DNA of 64,000 nucleotides from Verrucomicrobiales bacterium (GTDB lineage: Bacteria; Verrucomicrobiota; Verrucomicrobiia; Methylacidiphilales; JAAUTS01). The translations under genes were made by a program, and so were the position numbers. The notes under the pieces were generated by a model. That model searched no databases. It was not told the DNA's origin and worked only from the letters and a program-made list of their open reading frames with translations. The stretch spans positions 124,001-188,000 of the forward strand of contig JAIRPN010000004.1 of NCBI GenBank assembly GCA_031256975.1. The letters are read 5' to 3'. Below, in pieces: positions 20,211-59,814 of the stretch; positions within the stretch are counted from its first letter, which is position 1; every line of letters begins with the position of its first letter.

Positions 20211-20302
20211 GAAGAATGAATAGTGAAAATTGAAAATATAAAAACAGTTCCCGTGCCAGCCGCCTCCAATTTCACCCTTCACTTTTCACCATTCACTCTT
20301 CT
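20211..20302. repeat. Inverted-repeat element, GAAGAGTGAATGGTGAAAAG family
   Basis: Left arm 20211-20236 (GAAGAATGAATAGTGAAAAT and on). The right arm 20270-20302 is its reverse complement with few changes (TTTTCACCATTCACTCTTC). A 30-bp centre separates the arms. It starts 5 bp after the stop of the preceding gene. Same family as 31873-31960 and the solo arm at 2294-2324. There is no open reading frame inside. Confidence 0.75.
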
Positions 20303-31872: not shown

Positions 31873-31960
31873 GAAGAGTGAATGATGAAAAATGAGGGAA
31901 AAGATAAAGACAGCCGATGAACTATTTCACTCTTCACTTTTCACCATTCACTTTTCTCCC
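31873..31960. repeat. Inverted-repeat element, GAAGAGTGAATGGTGAAAAG family
   Basis: Begins six bases after a stop codon. Left arm GAAGAGTGAATGATGAAAAA; right arm (31926-31960) is the reverse complement of a GAGAAAAGTGAATGGTGAAA-type sequence. About 30 bp of unrelated DNA separates them. Same family as 20211-20302. Confidence 0.75.
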
Positions 31961-58657: not shown

Positions 58658-58676
58658 TTGAAACACTCGTCAGCAG

Positions 58677-58741
58677 GGTAACACAGACATTCCTGTCTGT
58701 GTTACCATGGCTAAGGCACAGACAAGAATGTCTGTGCTACC
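58677..58741. repeat. Two facing hairpins with ACAGACATTC core
   Basis: Hairpin 1 (58677-58706): GGTAACACAGAC-ATTCCT-GTCTGTGTTACC, a perfect 12-bp stem. Hairpin 2 (58716-58738): GCACAGAC-AAGAAT-GTCTGTGC. Hairpin 2 read in reverse complement resembles hairpin 1, so they are inverted copies of one unit. They start 19 bp after the GH2 stop and may serve as a terminator, but the copy structure suggests a dispersed repeat. Confidence 0.75.
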
Positions 58742-58836
58742 TTGCATGAGCGGATAAGAGGAAACGGAAAAATAATTCAGCGACCCGCCTACGCCCCACA
58801 GTCACCCGGCGAACAACATAGCGTCAGCTGTCATGC

Positions 58837-59034
58837 ATACTGATATTGAATGCATTGCATATTTATTAAATATTCATCGCATATTAAAATCATATTCAAC
58901 GAAGATTTATAAAATATCCGCTATAAATTAATTAGATATTCTGAATATATTTAATTAATATCCATCGAATAACTTTTAAATATTCATAACATATTTATCT
59001 AATATTCAATGAATATTTATTTCATTTGTAATCA
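58837..59034. repeat. Degenerate 22-bp (2 x 11 bp) AT-rich tandem array
   Basis: Eighteen 11-bp units in register, nine 22-bp periods, ending where the first possible ATG of the next gene begins. From 58859, units start every 11 bases with ATAT in most cases. C-type units start at 58870, 58892, 58914, 58936, 58958, 58980, 59002 (ATATTCATCGC, ATATTCAACGA, ATATCCGCTAT, ATATTCTGAAT, ATATCCATCGA, ATATTCATAAC, ATATTCAATGA). T-type units alternate at 58859, 58881, 58903, 58925, 58947, 58969, 58991, 59013 (ATATTTATTAA, ATATTAAAATC, AGATTTATAAA, AAATTAATTAG, ATATTTAATTA and so on). The period and the alternation were read base by base. Confidence 0.85.
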
Positions 59035-59079: not shown

Positions 59080-59814
59080 ATGAGCAAGGCATCCTTTGAA
59101 AAATGCACCCAAGGCCATATCCGTTTCCCTTCCTACATGCCGCGCACGGAAGACGAATTCCTTTCATGGTCGGCTAACTTTCTCCTGAACCTCGAAACCA
59201 ACCGCGACCTGCTGGATGTCAACCCTGTCCTGCTCCAACAACTGAACGCCACGCACGCCAACCTGAAAAAATCCCTCCACATCATCGGCCTGATGACCCG
59301 CGATCTCGCTTCCTTCAGCGCCTACAAAAACCGCGTCCTCTACGCCCTCGGCAATCGTCCCATCACCGGCCCTGTTCTCCCCGCCTTTCCATTACCCGAC
59401 GACCAATCCCGCACCGGTTTCGTCAAAACCATCAAGACCGAGATCGCCCGCATCAAAGCGCATCCCGATTACTCCACTGTCATCGGTCTCGCCATGGGCA
59501 TCGAAAGCCTCGATCATCCCTCCCGCCGCAAAAGCGAACTCACCCCCTCATTCAAACTCCTGGTCGACGACTTCCGCGTCATCCTTCACTGGAAAAAAGG
59601 TCCTGCCGAAGCGCTGCGCATCCTCGCTGACCATGGTGACGGCGAACTGCGGCTGGCCGGTGTCGCCACCCGTGCCAAATTCACCGACCCCGCGCCATTG
59701 CCGACCACCCCTGCCATCTGGCGTTACCAAGTCTGTTACCTCAAACGTGATCGCCAAATCGGTTTCTACAGTCCAATCAAGGAAATCGCGGTCAAGTCTG
59801 CCGGGGTAAAATGA
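59080..59814 (+). CDS. Hypothetical protein, helical N-terminus with fibronectin-III-like end
   Basis: 244 residues from the ATG at 59080; an in-frame ATG at 59038 would start directly at the AT array. No signal peptide. The first half is helical (MPRTEDEFLSWSANFLLNL, HANLKKSLHIIGLMTRDL). The end looks like a beta-sandwich strand set (WRYQVCYLKRDRQIGFYSPI) like fn3. I recall a layout of this sort in uncharacterised Planctomycetota and Verrucomicrobiota proteins, but no function is known. The gene is preceded by the 22-bp tandem array and followed 41 bp later by rph. Confidence 0.7.
   Translation: MSKASFEKCTQGHIRFPSYMPRTEDEFLSWSANFLLNLETNRDLLDVNPVLLQQLNATHANLKKSLHIIGLMTRDLASFSAYKNRVLYALGNRPITGPVLPAFPLPDDQSRTGFVKTIKTEIARIKAHPDYSTVIGLAMGIESLDHPSRRKSELTPSFKLLVDDFRVILHWKKGPAEALRILADHGDGELRLAGVATRAKFTDPAPLPTTPAIWRYQVCYLKRDRQIGFYSPIKEIAVKSAGVK

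Follow-up and report, generated by a model that had tools for sequence, protein, structure and literature searches.

A two-turn tandem array linked to an uncharacterised gene family in a Verrucomicrobiales bacterium and four other genomes of its phylum

The array and the gene at the locus

The stretch of DNA analysed here (the window) comprises 64,000 nucleotides of a Verrucomicrobiales genome (contig JAIRPN010000004.1), in which a tandem array lies just upstream of an uncharacterised gene of the hyp258 family, the neighbours of this gene being those of a GH2 glycosidase and of RNase PH (Table 1).

Table 1. Features at the array locus (positions in the window).
Feature	Position	Strand	Remarks
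Spacer between GH2 gene stop and array	58658..58836	.	two REP-like inverted repeats (58682, 58717), outside the array
Tandem array	58837..59034	.	nine 22-bp repeats = eighteen 11-bp units
Link between array and likely start codon	59035..59079	.	array stops just before in-frame ATG 59038, 45 bp before start 59080
hyp258 family gene, uncharacterised	59080..59814	+	start 59080 agrees with homologues; alternative in-frame start 59038

The consensus of the 22-bp unit, TAAATATKC-NNN-GMATATTTA, is dyad-symmetric and carries an ATAT core every 11 bp; the unit is a palindrome, another dyad axis lies 11 bp away, and when the array is set against its reverse complement, 70% of positions match over 183 bp. 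Measured against 1000 dinucleotide shuffles, self-identity peaks at lags 11 (0.52, z 5.4) and 22 (0.60, z 7.2) and is high again at lags 33 (0.52) and 44 (0.59), adjacent lags staying at background, which bears out the strict 11/22-bp period reported in a preliminary description of the locus; the alternation of C-type and T-type 11-bp units reported there is likewise present. An ATAT-like 4-mer occurs in identical phase (mod 11) in 17 of 20 units with zero indels and, although TRF models the array with 7% indels, a fixed 22-bp frame requires none, so that the units can indeed be called indel-free. Regularity is highest over 58859–59020.

The periodicity scan was motif-blind and covered 1.65 Mb of the 2.76 Mb of the genome (60%), i.e., 49,723 windows of 198 bp. 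In this sample, the array scores 0.28 at 22 bp, that is 12 standard deviations out (background sd 0.022), while the highest score apart from the arrays reported here and one 8-mer microsatellite is 0.10. Its GC content is 18%, against about 55% in the genome sample, and none of the other windows below 30% GC exceeds about 0.05 at 22 bp. AT-richness is thus no explanation for the periodicity, in agreement with the earlier argument that composition alone could not hold the phase. A sigma-70 promoter scan across the array found no promoter. The REP-like inverted repeats in the gap after the GH2 gene (two copies, 58682–58745, CACAGACA..TGTCTGTG) follow a pattern that has five matches in the 1.65 Mb; elsewhere in the window, a 14-bp tandem repeat, TTTCACCATTCACT, is identical at 20270–20301 and 31925–31956.

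The linked gene encodes a protein of about 244 aa, whose family has no match in Pfam, NCBIfam, PHROGs, PADLOC or the PDB. A low-confidence model built from two sequences (pLDDT 43) predicts a helical N-terminal part and a beta C-terminal part. Family database searches recognise no DNA-binding domain in the family proteins, and the invariant columns of the family alignment include no His and no Tyr. Most of these proteins are acidic (pI about 5–6), the window protein having a pI of 9.5. Purifying selection acts on the gene (dN/dS about 0.12 between L004 and L007); diverged paralogues are present in the same genome and, according to a profile search of 388 genomes of the phylum, the family also occurs in four others, mostly in multiple copies. 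An apparent viral relative (L196) turned out to be a chance match within a methyltransferase. Homologues elsewhere (L180, L183, L187, L179; L189, L191, L193, L194) are extended at the N-terminus by a tryptophan-rich segment (MKPLTWD..LRWG or MALWSNGTLW..), which lies between the array and the main domain, and the gene at C10:0.5k (L006, L005) looks mosaic, its N-terminal part resembling the C15 copy and its C-terminal part the C12 and C5 copies.

Arrays and gene family across genomes

The draft assembly of the genome is 87% complete, in 19 contigs, and some copies stop at contig edges. The scanned 60% contains nine 22-bp arrays of about 180–200 bp, ranging from 18 to 73% GC, to which two more at contig ends are to be added; across arrays, the length is mostly about 150–200 bp. 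In the scanned stretches, 22 bp (with 11) is the only non-codon period having a set of strong arrays. The ATAT/KC motif of the window is common to the arrays at C10:60.6–60.8k and C2:121.4k, while those at C4:46.3k, C4:89.9k, C12:80.4k, C12:101.4k, C9:170.7k and C5:2.2k have different sequences and a higher GC content. What is constant is the format: a short core (2–5 bp) once per helical turn (10.5–11 bp), alternating with its own reverse complement, the motif itself differing per locus. An 11-bp repeat resembling the window motif (TATTCRCTGAA, four copies) was also seen in a 58% GC genome region (L092, 1505–1550).

This recurrence bears on the idea, put forward in the preliminary description, that the array may be a site of intrinsic bending. 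The low GC content and 11-bp phase of the window array would suit curved AT-rich DNA, but the format recurs with unrelated motifs in sister arrays of 44–73% GC, so that phased A-tracts are not a common feature of the arrays, and the conserved core of the window array is ATAT, in which TpA steps interrupt A-tracts. We therefore regard curvature as the least probable of the explanations considered.

The placement at the 5′ end of a gene, already pointed out in that description, proved meaningful, as the gene family carries upstream arrays repeatedly. Six gene-linked arrays of the genome have a 22-bp period (the window array and those directly upstream of family genes at C4:46k, C5, C12:101k, the C18 end and the C19 end) and a seventh, upstream of the C15 copy, has a period of 21 bp; the C10:0.5k copy is preceded only by an irregular array below threshold. 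Contigs break inside gene or leader copies at the C18 and C19 ends and at both C2 ends (L009, L010, L003, L110), where recent duplicates of the module have probably split the assembly.

Four other arrays are gene-less yet carry the motif of a gene-linked one, with correlations to be read against null maxima of about 0.4–0.6: C10:60.7k and C2:121.4k match the window array (r 0.78 and 0.72), C9:170k matches C12:101k (r 0.94) and C4:89.9k matches C18/C19 (r 0.79/0.76). A fifth, C12:80k, weakly matches the C5 motif. The genes flanking the gene-less arrays are convergent at C10, C2 and C4:89k, but this is no rule, since C9 is flanked by ftsH and phoH, which are divergent, and C12:80k has codirectional neighbours.

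Among the 12 homologues in the four other genomes, 11 show the strongest upstream periodicity at exactly 21 bp (scores 0.18–0.76). Six of these arrays (0.265–0.76 or above 0.3) are clear of the coding background; as coding DNA can also score near 0.2, dyad symmetry is part of the support for the weaker ones. No clear upstream array was found at the Geminisphaera homologue L019 or at L185. The constant is thus two helical turns (21 or 22 bp) and not a sequence. Accordingly, a search with the window motif (the R1 motif model), as proposed in the preliminary description, recovered only three arrays in the genome itself and no convincing one in 98 relatives or in the 388 genomes of the phylum, the motifs being private to their loci. 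In the proposed comparison of the same locus in relatives, the 1.5 kb upstream of rph in G003 and G006 contained no family gene. In congeners, the counterpart intergenic sites of LysM/DEAD-box helicase and, in one family member, of vWA/DUF192 are devoid of arrays. In G314, two near-perfect 22-bp arrays about 52 kb apart (L221, 12465–12706; L219, 187–420) have a common unit, GTAACGCGATGTTCGAGGTCGA, in opposite orientation, no family gene being seen nearby. Altogether, the association of an array with a hyp258 family gene as a two-part module, recurring in this genome and in four others of the phylum, is well supported.

Symmetry, constraint and turnover of the units

In 17 of 22 arrays, the unit is significantly dyad-symmetric (Fisher p about 1e-25); in some near-perfect ones (L191/L194), the symmetry falls short of significance. 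The two arms of a unit do not covary: they pair equally well with the arms of other units (z −2.0, +0.55). Predicted RNA folds are mostly unremarkable with respect to shuffles; of four strands tested, one, the minus strand of the window array, reaches z −2.8. Both results make hairpins less likely and favour independent half-sites on duplex DNA.

They also weigh on a reading in which the array would be transcribed into a precursor RNA and cut into unit-length small RNAs or hairpins acting with the family protein, in a CRISPR- or TIGR-Tas-like manner. In its favour, the units are palindromic, and several copies lie behind a leader (L009, 941–1240; L004, reverse strand, 915–1184; L110, 16179–16421; L097, 18–213), which L004, L009 and L010 have in common over 270 bp at about 79%. 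It contains TTGACA-N18-TATGTT, which looks like a promoter, as well as a boxA-like GCTCTTT/GTTCTTT, a GCGCGCTC microsatellite and a stem with matching changes; it resembles an rRNA-type leader, and the arrays behind it may well be transcribed. On the other hand, the window copy has no leader, variable spacers amid constant repeats are lacking, and the family protein has no Nop/Tas or Cas-like domain, which, together with the missing covariation and the ordinary folds, makes an RNA-based function improbable. The Rfam matches were to microRNA models below threshold and were discarded.

Variability is unevenly distributed over the unit columns in five of the seven arrays tested (e.g., window, p 0.007; C10, p 0.0005; L007, p 0.001; L205, p 0.0005), the heterogeneity not being significant in L113 and L002. 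Moreover, the constrained columns coincide in paired arrays (L007/L205, rho 0.75, p 6e-5; window/C10, rho 0.44, p 0.04), which indicates that the cores are under constraint.

The arrays turn over completely between close gene copies. The genes of L004, L007, L009 and L010 are closely related (80–89% at the DNA level over the parts present), but the array of L004 bears no relation to the L007 and L009/L010 arrays (z −0.1), and L007 shows only a weak resemblance to L009 (z 3.2). As for arrays sharing a motif, they are not colinear: every in-register shift is similarly alike, whereas the true duplicates L009/L010 have a single shift at 0.95. Such a lack of colinearity would also follow from the copying of arrays at a stage when they were homogeneous.

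An alternative is that the arrays are neutral or selfish satellites, in which a palindromic seed of 21–22 bp would be amplified locally (by slippage or hairpin elongation) and sometimes copied elsewhere into intergenic regions, the gene being a neighbour or an enzyme-like cause and shared motifs reflecting descent. The turnover and the non-colinearity are compatible with this view, as are the near-perfect, young arrays of G314 (L191, L193, L194, L219/L221), where one array is found at two places (L219 and L221). However, satellites do not readily account for a constraint that is focused on core columns and recurs in paired arrays, for dyad symmetry and exact two-turn spacing being maintained over 18–73% GC and across families, or for a position consistently directly upstream of one gene family; we consider them unlikely, albeit the most serious competitor. 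Even if the arrays were selfish satellites, the exact two-turn spacing and the enforced dyad symmetry would require a new amplification mechanism.

Proposed function and comparison with known systems

The preliminary description did not include the dyad symmetry, the existence of an array family, its association with genes or the motif-matched remote arrays. Of its interpretation, the part that survives is the layout of same-face, helically phased protein-binding sites, neither bending nor iterons being supported. We propose, with a probability of about 40%, that the arrays are cooperative docking platforms for motif-specific dimeric factors, organised in specificity groups of linked and remote arrays. 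Each array would offer one face of the DNA to a dimeric, sequence-specific DNA-binding factor reading one weak half-site per helical turn, and the gene-linked and remote arrays of one motif would form a specificity group bound by one factor. The upstream array would then control or mark the linked gene, while remote arrays might serve in trans for tethering, for titration or as co-regulated sites, and quick motif turnover between copies would keep the groups apart. More tentatively, the fast-evolving two-turn dyad array and its hyp258 family gene could amount to a genetic module of a new kind, a private DNA address recognised in trans via remote arrays, with many mutually insulated groups per genome, in which the format is kept and the sequence changes.

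The product of the linked gene is the only consistently linked candidate for the array-reading factor; alternatively, it may be the regulated output. The L004 and L007 proteins are near-identical and their arrays unrelated, which makes it difficult to regard the linked protein as what reads the sequence; the mostly acidic pI of the family and its lack of a recognisable DNA-binding domain point the same way. Were an array-reading factor found, it would represent a naturally occurring collection of mutually insulated DNA-binding specificities, and protein-site co-evolution could be tested directly owing to the rapid change of motifs.

Iterons and ParR/parC centromeres have a similar spacing. Like the arrays described here, they are direct repeats at a helical spacing suiting cooperative same-face binding, the 11-bp repeats of parC-like partition centromeres included, and an iteron had been suggested for the window array. 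By comparison, our arrays are chromosomal and numerous (at least 11, with differing private motifs, on large chromosomal contigs), and they come with an uncharacterised gene family and gene-less partners in trans. Among the genes adjoining the window array (GH2, RNase PH and the linked gene), there is neither a Rep initiator nor a ParM-ParR type operon, the linked gene matching no Rep or Par family; among plasmid and phage records, this gene has no match and the arrays have no convincing one. A plasmid-type origin or centromere is accordingly very improbable. The blastn matches to large phages are weak and of low-complexity scale, and the IMG/VR pattern matches are short exact microsatellites.

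REP elements and their RAYT transposases are comparable in organisation, with a palindromic repeat type private to a gene and dispersed gene-less members, and the array-free intergenic sites of the congeners would also fit a transposase-like handler whose non-autonomous targets are the gene-less arrays. Yet the linked family has no Y1/HUH domain (no Pfam match to Y1_Tnp) and, as said, no invariant His or Tyr; its arrays are phased and tandem instead of single hairpins, lack the compensating arm changes of REP hairpins (pairing within units equalling pairing between units) and leave no clean insertion footprint. We thus hold this origin to be quite improbable.

TIGR-Tas systems also feature locus-specific tandem arrays beside one gene family, with sequences differing between loci and, in their stem-loop versions, palindromic units (PMC12045711). 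Their unit, however, is of 36 nt, with two alternating 8–12-nt repeats and variable 9-nt spacers, and their Tas protein has a Nop domain (PMC12045711), while the present arrays are spacer-free at 21–22 bp and the linked protein has no Tas/Nop match in Pfam, NCBIfam, PADLOC or the PDB. CRISPR is similarly distinct, given that the arrays have no spacers and that PADLOC returns no Cas match for the linked family. The TAACTGA heptamer direct repeats, which are intergenic and often lie just upstream of start codons, consist of one fixed heptamer, with no linked gene family and no locus-private motif (PMC4679880). We found no description of arrays such as ours in the literature searched, which was open-access only and hence is weak evidence of absence. 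The arrays therefore fit no described bacterial repeat class that we found, tested features setting them apart from TIGR-Tas, CRISPR, REP/RAYT, plasmid iterons and heptamer repeats, which suggests that array, gene and remote partners together constitute an undescribed protein-DNA address system.
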